Assembly (NCBI GenBank): GCA_009392005.1
Contig: VFHL01000002.1
Span: 62,001 to 126,000 of the forward strand
DNA length: 64,000 nt
From: SAR202 cluster bacterium
Lineage (GTDB): Bacteria > Chloroflexota > Dehalococcoidia > UBA6926 > VFHL01
Reading direction: 5' to 3'
Positions 39,818 to 46,862 of the stretch are shown here, piece by piece. The translations under genes and the position numbers were made by a program. Under the pieces are notes generated by a model. The model was not told the DNA's origin. It made no database searches and worked only from the letters and a program-made list of their open reading frames with translations. Numbering within the stretch: the stretch's first letter is position 1; the number at the start of each line of letters is the position of its first letter.

Positions 39818-40112
39818 ATCCTCAACCCCCAATCACATTAGGTGAAAACTTTAGAGTATTTAAAATTCCAACATTAATTAACCATATAGGGTATTGAACC
39901 ATCAAACTTATAGTGATACCTCAAAACTCATCCGTGGTCATTATATATAGATATTTCCAATCAAATCCATTTCTAAAGAGTGCACCAAACAAGAGTGGAT
40001 TGAATATTTATTGTGAAAGATCGTACTTTTATGTTGACGGCGCATTTATGGGTTTTTATAATCAAACTGATAAAAACTCGCGGGCGGACAAGTAAAAGGA
40101 AAAAAGCTAGGT

Positions 40113-41585
40113 ATGACCAACCCGAATAACCCTAACGTAATCTCACGCCAATCAAAGATAGATGATCAAGAGTACAAATGGGGATTTACTATCGATGTTG
40201 ATTCAGATGTCGCTCCTAAAGGCCTGAATGAAGACATTGTACGGCTAATCTCTGAAAAGAAAAGTGAGCCCCCATGGATGCTGGAATGGCGGCTACGCGC
40301 ATTTCGTCTATGGGAAAAAATGCGAGATGAGGAGCCAGAGTGGGCTAATGTTGAATACCCATCAATAGATTATCAAGACATAATTTATTACGCGTCTCCC
40401 CTAACTAAAGACAACGACCGACCTAAAAGCCTCGATGAAGTAGACCCAGAAATGCTGCAAGCATTTGAAAAATTGGGTATCCCATTGAATGAAAGAGAGG
40501 CACTAGCGGGGGTCGCGGTAGACGCAGTGATGGATAGTAGTTCAGTAACCACCACATTCAAAGAAAAACTTGAAGAATTAGGGATCATTTTTTGCTCATT
40601 TTCAGAAGCTATTCAAAATCACCCTGAATTGATAAAGAAATACTTAGGAACTGTTGTCCCGTACAGTGACAACTTTTTTGCTACTTTGAATTCAGCAGTA
40701 TTTAGTGATGGCTCGTTTGCATACATTCCACCAGGCGTTCGTTGTCCAATGGAATTAATGACCTATTTTCGAATTAATGAGGCGGACTCGGGACAATTCG
40801 AAAGAACTTTGATTATCGCAGACAAAGGAAGCTATGTCAGTTACCTTGAAGGCTGCACCGCACCCATCCGGAAGAAAAGCCAGTTACATGCTGCGGTTGT
40901 TGAACTTGTGGCACTTGATGACGCGGAAATTAAATACTCTACACTGCAAAATTGGTACCCGGGCGACAAGGATGGCCAAGGCGGCGTGTATAACTTCGTA
41001 ACAAAAAGAGGTAAAGCCCAAGGAATAAATTCAAAAATCTCTTGGACTCAAGTGGAAACTGGCTCAGCAATTACGTGGAAATATCCAAGCGTGATCTTAC
41101 AAGGAGACAACTCATCAGGTGAGTTCTATTCGGTTGCTTTGGTAAATAACCACCAACAAGCTGACACAGGAACAAAGATGACGCATATTGGTAAAAACAC
41201 TCGTAGCACAATTATCGCAAAGGGCATATCTGCCGGAAAGGCAGAAAATACGTACCGCGGTCTAGTCAAAATAATGCCCTCCGCCGAAGGAGCAAAAAAC
41301 TTTACCCAATGCGATTCACTTTTGATTGGAGACCAATGCGGTGCTCATACTGTTCCATACATTGAAGTCAAAAACCCCACCGCTCAAATTGAACATGAAG
41401 CTACCACTTCTAAGGTAAGCGACGATCAACTCTTTTACTGCATGCAACGCGGAGTCTCAGCTGAAGAATCAAATTACATGATCATCAACGGATTTTGCAG
41501 GGACATTTTTAAGGAATTACCATTTGAATTCGCTGTGGAGGCAGGTAATTTACTCAGAGTAAGTCTGGAAGGGACTGTAGGCTAG
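40113..41585 (+). CDS. sufB: Fe-S cluster assembly protein SufB
   Basis: SufB is the scaffold subunit of the SufBCD complex that builds Fe-S clusters in the cytoplasm. The 490-residue length is typical, and the sequence is highly conserved: [48 protein letters not shown], and the region around the conserved Cys ([18 protein letters not shown]). AAAAGGAA precedes the ATG. sufC follows after an unusually long 185-base spacer. Confidence 0.97.
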
Positions 41586-41770: not shown

Positions 41771-42553
41771 ATGCTAGAAGTGCATGATCTGCACGCGTCA
41801 GTCGGTGAAATCAAAATACTGCGCGGTATTAATTTTACAGTTAAGAAGGGCGAAACACACGCCATAATGGGACCAAATGGTTCTGGAAAAAGTACCTTCG
41901 CGAATGTACTAGCAGGAAGGCCGGAGTACACGGTTACAAAGGGTGAGGTACTTCTTGATGGAAAAAACCTCTTGTCAATGGAGCCTGACGTAAGAGCGCG
42001 AGAAGGGGTTTTTCTCGCCATGCAATACCCCGTAGAACTACCAGGAGTCCGTTACAATCAATTTTTGAAAGCCGCACTTGACGCAATTCGCGAACATAAA
42101 GGTGAAGACCAGATAGATATTCGCGCATTCAACCAACTTCTAAAAGAAAAAGGGGACCTCGTAGAAATAAATCCTGATCTCATGCGTCGAAACGTCAACG
42201 AAGGATTTTCTGGTGGCGAAAAAAAACGCAGTGAGATTTTGCAAATGGCTCTACTAGAACCACATCTCGCGCTCCTTGATGAAACAGATTCGGGTCTGGA
42301 TATAGACGCTCTCAAAACCGTTGCTGATGGTGTAAATCGTCTACAAGATCCTGAGAAATCAGTGATACTGGTGACACATTATCAACGCCTTCTTAATTAC
42401 ATATCACCGGATTTTGTCCACGTATTAATCGATGGGAAAATAGCTAAATCAGGAGATCATAAACTGGCTCTAGAATTGGAGAACAAAGGATACGATTGGC
42501 TTCGTGAAACCATACCGCCCGTGAGTGAAACAAGTGGAGAAAGTGCAAGTTAA
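41771..42553 (+). CDS. sufC: Fe-S cluster assembly ATPase SufC
   Basis: This is the ABC-type ATPase of the SufBCD complex. Its 260 residues have Walker A GPNGSGKST (34-42), signature FSGGEKKRSEI and Walker B LALLDETDSGLDIDAL. The Glu/Asp arrangement is typical of SufC. It is cytoplasmic and drives conformational change in SufB-SufD. AAAAGGAG lies upstream of the ATG, and sufD begins 2 bases after its stop. Confidence 0.97.
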   Translation: MLEVHDLHASVGEIKILRGINFTVKKGETHAIMGPNGSGKSTFANVLAGRPEYTVTKGEVLLDGKNLLSMEPDVRAREGVFLAMQYPVELPGVRYNQFLKAALDAIREHKGEDQIDIRAFNQLLKEKGDLVEINPDLMRRNVNEGFSGGEKKRSEILQMALLEPHLALLDETDSGLDIDALKTVADGVNRLQDPEKSVILVTHYQRLLNYISPDFVHVLIDGKIAKSGDHKLALELENKGYDWLRETIPPVSETSGESAS

Positions 42554-42555
42554 AA

Positions 42556-43908
42556 ATGAGTAAGATCGCCGCATCTGAAATTGCTTTTATCGAACATTTT
42601 GATTCTTTTAATAGCATGATGACAAGCACACAACCTAATTGGCTAAACCAGAAACGGGCTGATGCATTTACAAATTATCGCACTAATGGTTTACCCACCG
42701 GTCGACGTGGAAATGAGTCATGGAAATATACAGATGTCCGTGATATATCGAACACTGCTTTTGCAAATTCATCAGAAGATCTAATAACGTCAATCACGGA
42801 AAAAGACCTCCTTGATTCATCACACCTGAATAAAAATTGGTCCACACTCGTTTTCATAAACGGCGTCTATTCATCATCACTATCTACACAAAATCCAAAT
42901 GATGGAATTCAGATCACAAACATCAAAGACGCTCTCGGATCACACGGCCAAATTATCGAACGGCATTTAGGTAAATATATTGCCCCTGACGATGATCCGT
43001 TTGTCTTGTTAAATACAGCTTTTATCAATGACGGAGCCTTCATCTATATACCCAAAGGGATTGCTTCACAAGATCCAATCCACGTAATCTATTTTTCAAC
43101 GAGCGAAACGGACCCAACGATTTCTCACCCACGCACATTAATTGTCACAGAAGAATTCAGTGAAACGACACTGATCGAAAGCTACGTCGGAACACCTAAA
43201 GCCAAGTACTTCACAAATAATGTCACTGAAATCGTGATCGGTGAAGAATCCCGAGTTGACCATTACCGGCTGTTGCTAGACAACCCTGATTCTTTTCACA
43301 TAGGCACAACGGTAGTCCACCAAGAAAAAGCGTCGACATTCTCATCAACATCCTTGCAAAAAGGAGCAGCCTTGGGACGCCACAATTTAACCTCAACATT
43401 GGCAGCACCTCAATCAACCTGTAACCTCAATGGGCTTTACATGACCACCGGATCCCAACACATTGATAATTACATTAACATTGAGCACATTGAGCCACAT
43501 ACAACCAGTCGCTTGTATTACAAAGGGATTCTTGACGGGAGCTCGAGGGCAATCTTCGGTGGAACAGTGACAGTGCAAAGAGGTGCAATGAAAACAGATG
43601 CGCAACAAAAAGACAAAAACCTATTACTGTCACGAGAAGCAGAGGTAGACAGCAAACCAGCGCTCTTTATATATGCAGATGATGTGATATGTGGACATGG
43701 AGCAACGGCCGGACACATGGACGACAATTCTGTGTTCTATATGCAAAGTCGTGGCATCGATCTGCTCACTGCACGTCGAATGTTGATTAAAGCATTTGCA
43801 AGCGAAATAATTGAGGAAGTTAAGATAGATTCTCTGCGAGAATATCTCGAAGATCTATTCGTGTCTTTTGAAGATGAATTAACCCTTCTACAAGCCTCCA
43901 GCATATAA
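42556..43908 (+). CDS. sufD: Fe-S cluster assembly protein SufD
   Basis: SufD is the SufB paralogue that completes the assembly complex. The 450 residues include RRGNESWKYTDVRDI, DGAFIYIPKGI, GGTVTVQRGAMKTDAQQKDKN-type sequence near residue 335, and the C-terminal CGHGATAGHMDDNSVFYMQS. Two bases separate it from sufC. No cysteine desulfurase (SufS) or sulfur-transfer protein (SufU/SufE) gene follows in this window, although these usually complete the operon. Confidence 0.95.
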   Translation: MSKIAASEIAFIEHFDSFNSMMTSTQPNWLNQKRADAFTNYRTNGLPTGRRGNESWKYTDVRDISNTAFANSSEDLITSITEKDLLDSSHLNKNWSTLVFINGVYSSSLSTQNPNDGIQITNIKDALGSHGQIIERHLGKYIAPDDDPFVLLNTAFINDGAFIYIPKGIASQDPIHVIYFSTSETDPTISHPRTLIVTEEFSETTLIESYVGTPKAKYFTNNVTEIVIGEESRVDHYRLLLDNPDSFHIGTTVVHQEKASTFSSTSLQKGAALGRHNLTSTLAAPQSTCNLNGLYMTTGSQHIDNYINIEHIEPHTTSRLYYKGILDGSSRAIFGGTVTVQRGAMKTDAQQKDKNLLLSREAEVDSKPALFIYADDVICGHGATAGHMDDNSVFYMQSRGIDLLTARRMLIKAFASEIIEEVKIDSLREYLEDLFVSFEDELTLLQASSI

Positions 43909-43987: not shown

Positions 43988-44767
43988 ATGCTCGAATCCG
44001 AAGTCACGTTCATCATTACATCAGGTAGCGATGATGATGTTTTAGCCAAAATCAAATCACTAAAAAGCATTGGGGAATATCTATTTTCTCCAATCCAGCA
44101 ACAAAATATAGAGGATATATATCTTGACACTGAGGAATCTTCACTCAATGCCCATCATTTCGCTCTTCGTATCAGGATCCTGAATGATCAAACATTCATC
44201 ACTCTTAAGGGATTGGATCAGCCAAATCAATGGGGTGGGATCAACCGCATGGAAATCGAAGAGCCATGGTCACAAGCATCTTTGGAAAACATACATTCTA
44301 AACTGAAGGATGAGGGAGTCATGATCCCATACGAAAAACATTTCTTCGTACAGGACAACCCTATTGCCACAATCACTAATATGCAGCTTCTGGTAATCCA
44401 GAAACGTGACACCCACCGCACAAAAAAAGACATTGCTATTGATACTATCGATGACTCTCCTGGGAAATTTGCCGAACTGGCAATTGATTCCTGCAAATAC
44501 TACGTCAGAAATAATACAATCAAGCACCTTGAAATAGAATTGGAAATGACCTCAAATTTGTACCAGGCCCACCAAGGCTCCCTTGTCAATAATTTCATGA
44601 ACAGATACAAATCAATCATGCAAATTTGGCCTCACAATAAACTTTCAACAGGTAAAGCGATAAACCACTTATATTCCACAGGGGAACTCTCAAGCCTTAT
44701 TCGCGACAACAAAAAACTTGACCCAAAGGCATACACACTGATTGACCAATATCTATCGATCACATGA
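43988..44767 (+). CDS. CYTH-fold (triphosphate tunnel) protein
   Basis: This 259-residue protein has the alternating charged strands of the CYTH superfamily: LESEVTF, YLDTEESSL, ALRIRILND, TFITLKG, RMEIEEP, LVIQKRDTH and KHLEIELEM. These residues line a tunnel that binds triphosphates in tripolyphosphatases, thiamine triphosphatase and class IV adenylate cyclases. The signature ExExK at the N-terminus is incomplete: E3-S-E5-V-T7, with Thr in place of Lys. The activity is therefore uncertain. It lies between sufD and a DXR-like gene with no clear operon link. Confidence 0.75.
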   Translation: MLESEVTFIITSGSDDDVLAKIKSLKSIGEYLFSPIQQQNIEDIYLDTEESSLNAHHFALRIRILNDQTFITLKGLDQPNQWGGINRMEIEEPWSQASLENIHSKLKDEGVMIPYEKHFFVQDNPIATITNMQLLVIQKRDTHRTKKDIAIDTIDDSPGKFAELAIDSCKYYVRNNTIKHLEIELEMTSNLYQAHQGSLVNNFMNRYKSIMQIWPHNKLSTGKAINHLYSTGELSSLIRDNKKLDPKAYTLIDQYLSIT

Positions 44768-44836: not shown

Positions 44837-45979
44837 ATGACTGATAATTCTGTTCGTCTGGCCATTCTTGGATCCACCGGCGCGCTTGGGGAAACAGTGC
44901 TTAGTGTCGTGCGCTCGTTCCCAGATAAATTAAATGTTGTCGGCCTTGGAGCCGGTACCAATGTTGATTTGCTAGCTCAACAAATTCAAGAGTTTGAACC
45001 TTTCATGGCACATATAGGAAAAGGACGATGGCAAGACAGTAACATTGATCTTAAAGATTTCCGATTTGTTACTGATCAAGAAATGGTCAATCACCAGGAG
45101 GTCGACACTGTCGTCGTCGCATCAGTTGGTAAAGTCGGCCTCGAACCAACTCTTGGAGCTTTGCGTTCAGGTAAACGGGTCGCCCTTGGCAATCAGGAGA
45201 CCATGGCCATGGCTGGATCCCTGTTAACTGATGTCGCATCAAAACAAGGATCTGAGATACTTCCCCTTAACGCTGAAACCAGCGCCATATGGCAGTTATT
45301 AAAAGGAGAAACAAGCCCGATTTCGCGCTTAATTCTCACCTCCTCGTACGGTCCCGCGAGGCCCCGAGAAGCCGGCCAAGTTCCTTCTATGACTCCTGAG
45401 GAAATAGCTGTACACGTCGGCCGGAGAATGGGAAGGAAAAGATCTATTGATGCCACCACACTTATGAGCAAAGCAGTTCAAGTATTGGAGGCACACTATC
45501 TGTTCAATATCCCTCTTGATGCAATCACTGTTGTATACCACCCCGAAAACATCATAAGGGCTATCGTAGAGTTTGAAGATGGATCATCAAAAGCGCACTT
45601 CGCCCCTTCAGATCCACGTTTAGCAGTTCAAACTGTCCTCCTTTTTCCAGAACGCCTAGAGAATGAACTTGTTTTACGACTCAGCCTAACAACTGCTGGC
45701 CAACTAACTTTGCGCCCTTTAGACGAAAGTGACTTTCCCTTATTCGGATTAGCAATAGCAGCCGCCAGAGCAGGAAACACATATCCTGCTGTCATCTCAG
45801 CGGCAAATGAGTCCGCCGTGGATCTATTCTTGTCCCAATCAATTGGTTTCACAGATATCGCACCGCTCGTTGAACGCACACTCGCCGCACATCAAGCGAC
45901 ATCACATCCCGTCTTAGAAGACATCATGGATGCCGATCAATGGGCACGCGAGTTTGTATCTCGACAAGTTGCATATTAG
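44837..45979 (+). CDS. DXR-like protein with altered active site
   Basis: This 380-residue homologue of 1-deoxy-D-xylulose 5-phosphate reductoisomerase has the whole fold and is collinear with E. coli DXR: NADPH loop ILGSTGALGETVLSVVR, MGRKRSIDATTLMSKAVQVLEAHYLF, VVYHPENIIRAIVEFEDG. Key residues differ by hand alignment (E. coli numbers): K125 to Gln (120), metal ligand D150 to Asn (145), S151 to Ala (146), W212 to Arg (196), S222 to Ala (206), N227 to Ser (211), metal ligand E231 to Gln (215). E152, H209 and K228 remain. Normal DXR chemistry seems unlikely. It may act on another substrate or serve a non-enzymatic role. A canonical DXR is not in the window. Confidence 0.8.
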   Translation: MTDNSVRLAILGSTGALGETVLSVVRSFPDKLNVVGLGAGTNVDLLAQQIQEFEPFMAHIGKGRWQDSNIDLKDFRFVTDQEMVNHQEVDTVVVASVGKVGLEPTLGALRSGKRVALGNQETMAMAGSLLTDVASKQGSEILPLNAETSAIWQLLKGETSPISRLILTSSYGPARPREAGQVPSMTPEEIAVHVGRRMGRKRSIDATTLMSKAVQVLEAHYLFNIPLDAITVVYHPENIIRAIVEFEDGSSKAHFAPSDPRLAVQTVLLFPERLENELVLRLSLTTAGQLTLRPLDESDFPLFGLAIAAARAGNTYPAVISAANESAVDLFLSQSIGFTDIAPLVERTLAAHQATSHPVLEDIMDADQWAREFVSRQVAY

Positions 45980-46160: not shown

Positions 46161-46862
46161 ATGCGGTTATATTTTTTAGCACTCAGCACTTTATTCATTC
46201 TATTCTCGCCAATCATGGTGGTCGCGAACAGCGCGGTTTTTGTCGTCAATAGTTCGGCTGTATATGACTATTCAATAAACCAGTACAATGCTGAAGATCG
46301 AACAGGGGTCCCAAAAAATCAATTATTTAATGCCAATAAAGAGATCATTAGATATTTTCAAGATTCAAATGAACACCTAGATATCAAAGTGACAAATCTA
46401 GAAAATAATTTGATCGAATTATTTAATGCTCGAGAAATCCACCATATGCGTGACGTGAAGACAATCATGCAATGGCTCTACCGCACACAAGCTGTACTCA
46501 TGGGATTGTGCGTAACTTACTTAGTTTTTGGCATCATGAGCGCGGCCGTTCGTAAAAAATGGTCCCTACCATATTTGGGGCGCACTTTAGCAACAAGCGG
46601 AATCCTATCTGGGGGTATAGTTCTTTTCCTCGGTGTGTTCGCTGCAATGGGTGGATTCCGTTACTTGTTCCTCCAATTTCATTTCATTAGTTTCTCAAAC
46701 GACTTATGGATACTTGACCCGAACCGTGACAAATTAATTCAAATGTTTCCTGAACCATTCTTTTTTGACGCAACAATGCTTATAGCAGGATTGACGCTTG
46801 GTCAAATTATTCTTTCGCTGGTAAGTGGTCTCTACGTATTGTTTTGGCACCCACAGCGCTAA
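46161..46862 (+). CDS. DUF1461-family integral membrane protein
   Basis: This 233-residue membrane protein has about four spans, at residues 3-24, 108-128, 143-168 and 205-227. The diagnostic stretches are FNAREIHHMRDVKTIM on the outside loop and FHFISFSNDLWILDP followed by DKLIQMFPEPFFFD. The function of DUF1461 is not known to me. It is monocistronic, with a promoter whose start should coincide with the ATG. Confidence 0.82.
   Translation: MRLYFLALSTLFILFSPIMVVANSAVFVVNSSAVYDYSINQYNAEDRTGVPKNQLFNANKEIIRYFQDSNEHLDIKVTNLENNLIELFNAREIHHMRDVKTIMQWLYRTQAVLMGLCVTYLVFGIMSAAVRKKWSLPYLGRTLATSGILSGGIVLFLGVFAAMGGFRYLFLQFHFISFSNDLWILDPNRDKLIQMFPEPFFFDATMLIAGLTLGQIILSLVSGLYVLFWHPQR

Follow-up and report, generated by a model that had tools for sequence, protein, structure and literature searches.

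DXR, the metal-dependent reductoisomerase that converts DXP to MEP, is a drug target. Among the steps of the MEP pathway it has been counted as a rigid one (PMC10663253), and the locus described here raises the question of what a full-length DXR homologue does once metal ligands and substrate contacts have been replaced. The gene, here termed DXRL, lies in a 64,000-nucleotide stretch of a SAR202 cluster bacterium genome (the window; genome G000). Our analysis indicates that a group of uncultured, SAR202-like Chloroflexota carries a second DXR with a dismantled metal site, which probably serves a new function.

Residues of DXRL and its canonical partner

The open frame runs undamaged from ATG to TAG (Table 1), and the Pfam domains DXP_reductoisom, DXP_redisom_C, and DXPR_C span the protein, all above their gathering scores. 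Aligned by MAFFT with the DXR of E. coli K-12 and some 55 canonical DXRs, the protein shows, in E. coli numbering, K125Q, D150N, S151A, W212R, S222A, N227S (S211), and E231Q, with E152, H209, and K228 retained. An earlier note on the window had read these seven substitutions and three retained residues by hand, together with an intact full-length frame and NADPH loop, and the alignments bear out all of them. Further changes, absent from that list, are H153T, G185S, G187Y, I218R, H257R, and S258A. The metal ligands D150, E152, and E231 are hence Asn, Glu, and Gln, where a functional DXR-I has three carboxylates, and among the substrate contacts (K125, S222, N227, K228, W212, and H257) K228 alone is kept. 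A loop of the GxTGxxG type is present as GSTGALG and is predicted to bind NADPH.

Table 1. Features of the DXRL gene and the suf run in the window (residue equivalences in E. coli DXR numbering)
Feature	Position	Strand	Basis or remark
Promoter-like site before sufB, 11/12 matches	40034-40062	+	such sites no commoner here than in shuffles
sufB, first gene of the suf run ending with DXRL	40113..41585	+	SUFBD_core
sufC (ABC ATPase)	41771..42553	+	ABC_tran; name by context
sufD; relatives have DXRL beside sufD	42556..43908	+	Pfam and neighbour comparison
CYTH-domain protein separating sufD from DXRL; not seen there in relatives	43988..44767	+	Pfam
DXR-like paralogue (DXRL), 380 aa	44837 (ATG)..45979 (TAG), stop codon included	+	open frame, Pfam, alignment
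Rossmann NADP(H) loop LGSTGALG, residues 11-18, retained	44867..44890	+	alignment
Q120 at substrate lysine K125	45194..45196	+	alignment
N145-A146-E147 at metal loop D150-S151-E152; ligand retained by E147 only	45269..45277	+	alignment
R196 at lid tryptophan W212; Arg in 7/7 core members	45422..45424	+	alignment
A206 at phosphate-binding S222; Ala in 7/7 core members	45452..45454	+	alignment
Q215 at metal ligand E231; Gln in 7/7 core members and the G092 copy	45479..45481	+	alignment
R241 at pocket histidine H257; Arg in 7/7 core members and the G092 copy	45557..45559	+	alignment

As K125, W212, E231, and H257 are kept in all 56 canonical DXRs compared, the changes in the window protein are not chance variation. 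Local misalignment was considered as their source and rejected, since alignments of 10 and of 64 sequences are free of gaps next to the metal and phosphate motifs. Against the NCBI equivalog TIGR00243 (Dxr) the window protein scores 307.6 bits, below the cut-off of 315.7. All five DXRL proteins scored (window, G002, G001, SAR202-VII-2, and G381) fall under that cut-off, at 238 to 308 bits; the four canonical partner DXRs scored reach 431 to 443 bits, the window genome's own being at 431.2.

An AlphaFold model built from 54 sequences (pLDDT 92.6, pTM 0.92) replaced a five-row model that was poor in the lid (pLDDT 70); the lid, at about residues 170-199, is among the least certain parts of the model. 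The DXR fold spans its whole length, and the top VIA-align match is A. baumannii IspC with FR900098 and NADPH (Z 50.7, 1.8 Å over 375 residues). The overlay on DXR that the earlier note had proposed is therefore an end-to-end superposition, and neither the alignment nor the predicted fold gives any sign of a shift that would restore Asp or Glu to the metal site.

A second dxr, which the note had suggested looking for, is present in the window's genome at G000:C1:232905-234005. Its product has K125, D150, S151, E152, H209, W212, S222, N227, K228, E231, and H257, and the gene sits in the usual cluster, in the order uppS-cdsA-dxr-rseP-ispG (names from sequence and context). IspH is encoded in the genome as well. 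DXRL is thus not the organism's sole DXR, and neither of the two refuting conditions set in the note applies. Canonical dxr is likewise found in the DXRL carriers searched as whole genomes, in G004 as just a 5' part at a contig end. As a separate observation, the sole DXR of G019 is highly divergent, with 30% identity to the window protein and the longest branch in the tree, and keeps its catalytic residues.

Distribution, shared signature, and descent

Within the window's order, DXRL is full length in five of the seven genomes, which represent three families; in a sixth, a contig end truncates the gene to a fragment, and the seventh genome is 69% complete. The gene is also found in SAR202-VII-2 and in G381, a genome of another order. 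The latter emerged when 393 genomes of the class were searched by pattern, and SAR202-VII-2 came from a scan of GTDB genome contigs with diagnostic motifs, which also returned four Chloroflexota/Dehalococcoidia MAGs that are most likely the G001-G004 records and were counted once. In a lenient profile search, very few genomes have two matches, namely the carriers plus G092, G078, G010, G207, and G360; for G010, G207, and G360 the best scores of the second matches are weak, a pattern expected for pieces of one gene. Because the SAR202-VII-2 protein scores 439 bits with A2, level with the canonical DXRs of G033, G035, and G063 (432-452), profile score was abandoned as a membership criterion and members were assigned by residues. 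A Salipaludibacillus match (L090) proved to be a chance pattern match to a canonical DXR, and a plasmid search returned ordinary DXRs only, at less than 60% identity.

The seven full-length core members share a new conserved set around the former active site, consisting of an aromatic residue at 187, R212, R218, A222, Q231, and R257, and all seven retain E152 and K228. Other positions vary, with Lys, Gln, Asn, Ile, or Thr at 125, Asp, Asn, or Glu at 150, and Ser, Ala, or Asp at 151. D150N occurs in the window protein only; four relatives in the order retain Asp150 and have gained Asp151, and SAR202-VII-2 retains K125, D150, and S151. The earlier note's loss of two of three metal ligands therefore holds for the window protein, whereas in the family as a whole the common ligand loss is E231 alone (E231Q, accompanied by H257R), the remaining metal and substrate residues being lost differently from member to member. 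Canonical DXRs have 120 columns with conservation of at least 90%; six or all of the seven DXRL members keep 57 of these columns, and 24 are altered, mostly in active-site segments (125, 185-190, 202-223, 231, and 254-258). Some members also vary in the Rossmann loop (T10G in SAR202-VII-2, S12I in G381). Identity of DXRL to the DXRs of the same class is 42-51%.

The second copy in G092 (L102) shares E231Q and H257R but also has E152A, N227R, and K228E and lacks R212, R218, and A222; by its residues it is a distant relative only. This copy (L102:9633-10748) passes the Dxr equivalog cut-off, at 348.8 bits, and would be named dxr despite the loss of two of three metal ligands. DXRL genes, too, may carry a dxr annotation in metagenomes despite scores below the curated cut-off.

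In the protein tree from the full alignment, the phylogeny that the note had called for, the seven core members form one branch (99/87), also when the G092 copy is included (99/92). The branch adjoins canonical DXRs that mostly have Pro at 153 and stands apart from the order's own canonical copies; an AU test that used the full alignment mildly rejects a recent duplication of the order's own dxr (p 0.022). Once the active-site columns are taken out, the eight still group, without support and in a quick search that did not converge, and a six-member core keeps 99 (SH-aLRT). A single origin of the branch is likely on these sequence grounds. The G381 branch is long, and DXRL branches in general are longer than those of the canonical copies.

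Lost catalytic residues and long branches are what a decaying duplicate on its way to loss would show, a reading that we consider very improbable. Among G001, G003, and G004, NG86 dN/dS of DXRL is 0.056-0.10 and that of sufD 0.096-0.12; in the G001/G003 pair, DXRL has 0.056 against 0.114 for canonical dxr. These values are rough, as most pairs have a dS close to 1 or higher and YN00 ratios are lower or not obtained. DXRL is maintained under purifying selection in these genomes, the window lineage having no close relative for dN/dS. Moreover, the open frames are full length in all seven core members, and both the new residues and the gene position are conserved. For the G001-G004 lineage, decay is largely refuted by dN/dS and the shared signature. 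The note's description of a paralogue rather than a decaying copy agrees with this, with the canonical dxr in the genome, and with recurrent shared substitutions on one branch.

The suf neighbourhood and candidate functions

In the window, sufB, sufC, sufD, the CYTH-domain gene, and DXRL follow one another on one strand, and the ABC ATPase encoded ahead of sufD in G002 shares 56.7% identity with the window sufC. In all six genomes of the order in which it was found, DXRL closes the suf genes at their 3' end. It directly follows sufD in G001, G003, G004, and G005, with 28 to about 80 bases between them, and in G002 a small Rieske [2Fe-2S] protein gene (L036:3957-4277) separates the two. The SAR202-VII-2 contig ends just upstream of DXRL, and the G381 gene is not linked to suf and adjoins a VIT1-family transporter gene. 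Promoter and terminator scans of the DXRL region stay at chance level, and we therefore infer co-transcription with suf from spacing and strand. The next gene downstream of DXRL in the window (46161-46862, plus strand) matches Pfam Lit (lipoprotein intramolecular transacylase).

From its residues, DXRL is strongly expected to be incapable of the metal-dependent reductoisomerase reaction. Conversion of DXP to MEP would be lost because the Mg or Mn that holds the hydroxyketone could not be properly bound. DXRL belongs to a rare and old DXR-I paralogue branch that coexists with canonical DXR; at about even chances, it is now a metal-independent NADP(H) enzyme with a changed substrate. The protein would still bind NADP(H), its lid would close on an anionic ligand of another kind, gripped by K228 and the new arginines, and it would serve as a reductase or dehydrogenase using NADP(H) in a process co-expressed with Fe-S cluster assembly. 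Counting for this are the substitutions that seven members, drawn from at least two orders, have in common, along with the separate canonical dxr, the single branch in the tree, purifying selection, the changes concentrated in active-site segments, the match of the model to DXR with bound NADPH, the scores under the Dxr cut-off, the counterpart mutant 2jcx, and the suf linkage. Counting against it are the small family, the long G381 branch, the G381 gene away from suf, the residues kept in SAR202-VII-2, the Rossmann positions that vary in some members, and the grouping of eight that is unsupported once active-site columns are removed.

IspG and IspH require Fe-S clusters, and for this reason a second function can be envisaged near suf, one that we regard as a tentative possibility. 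DXRL would be a regulatory pseudoenzyme, a DXR fold with a ligand pocket and no catalysis, that acts as a sensor of NADPH or of a pathway metabolite, or as a partner of canonical DXR, and so tunes isoprenoid synthesis or SUF activity. Catalytic residues lost in various ways, as at 125 and 150, with fold and Rossmann loop kept, would fit such a role, as would the proximity to sufD in the order and the canonical DXR that is always alongside. The new pocket residues are, however, more strictly conserved than a bare scaffold needs, the G381 copy lies away from suf, and any partner of DXRL is hypothetical. As we judge that the pocket and not just the scaffold is conserved, we prefer the reading of an enzyme that uses NADP(H) on a changed substrate to that of a regulator. 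The earlier note's term "neofunctionalised" stands as far as a maintained paralogue is meant; a new catalytic activity is a further step, and a conserved pseudoenzyme would leave the same sequence traces.

The residues also speak to the idea that DXRL is still a DXR, a divergent isoenzyme, perhaps tolerant of inhibitors, whose metal site has been rebuilt and which still makes MEP. E152 and K228 persist in every core member on a DXR fold, K125 and D150 are kept in SAR202-VII-2, and Asp151 is gained in four members; SAR202-VII-2 may have a residual metal site, and members with D150-D151-E152 might be rebuilding one. Yet E231 is gone in all, H257 and W212 are replaced, and the window protein also lacks K125, D150, S151, S222, and N227. 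The T. gondii enzyme retains 5-6% activity when Ala replaces the equivalent of H209 or of N227 (PMC11346426). With a canonical DXR present, such activity in DXRL is not needed, and no phosphonate genes stood out among the neighbours that were read. On balance this reading is unlikely.

A DXS above the family cut-off is absent from all seven genomes of the order and from G381, G393, and G092, though dxr is present; in G000, only a two-gene transketolase (G000:C4:59723-61512, L132) scores in the DXS search. MEP pathways without DXS are known (PMC10663253). As every carrier tested lacks DXS and has canonical DXR, DXRL could conceivably be the NADPH-dependent enzyme of a DXS-independent entry to the MEP pathway, making or conditioning a DXP precursor, and its position by suf would then reflect the Fe-S demand of IspG and IspH. 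We hold this to be improbable. DXS is found in 18 of 33 relatives from other orders and absent from 15, and since its absence is much wider than DXRL, DXS was rejected as a linked partner. Over three independent lineages the association is not significant (about 0.09, calculated by hand).

DXRL beside known DXR systems

Searches of an open-access library turned up no account of a DXR-I paralogue whose metal site is dismantled. If confirmed, DXRL would be a natural experiment in which a metal-dependent reductoisomerase became something else, and its intermediates allow the order of changes to be tested, as SAR202-VII-2 keeps K125 and D150 and the window protein has lost both.

DXRL resembles DXR-I (TIGR00243; PF02670, PF08436, and PF13288) in full-length homology, three domains, fold, Rossmann loop, E152, and K228. 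It differs in that every member has E231 replaced, with W212, S222, H257, and G187 replaced too; the window protein additionally lacks K125, D150, S151, and N227. DXRL also scores below the curated Dxr cut-off and shares its genome with a canonical DXR, and in the order it lies by suf genes. To relate these positions to PfDXR, we take its residue numbers to match E. coli D150, E152, E231, S222, N227, K228, W212, and H257. By this matching, Mn is bound in PfDXR by the counterparts of D150, E152, and E231 and the phosphonate by the residues corresponding to S222, N227, and K228, with the W212 and H257 equivalents forming part of the pocket lining (PMC11721986).

Among PDB chains, 2jcx, which belongs to an M. 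tuberculosis DXR titled "mutant", comes closest to the window protein. This mutant (2jcx/2jcy/2jd0) has Asn and Gln at the positions of window N145 and Q215 and is an engineered counterpart of the two ligand changes. It is, however, a single laboratory mutant of an ordinary DXR and lacks the other pocket changes of DXRL.

DXR-II (DRL) and its sister oxidoreductases DLO1 and DLO2 provide a precedent for DXR-type enzymes beside uncharacterised NAD(P)-dependent oxidoreductases in one family, and DXR-II is reported to have no significant similarity to DXR-I outside the Rossmann region (PMC3847144). The Pfam and NCBIfam matches of the window protein are to DXR-I families only, and its structure match list is filled by DXR-I. 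Relative to the DXR-II/DLO family, DXRL would represent the opposite direction, a true DXR-I homologue departing from DXR function.
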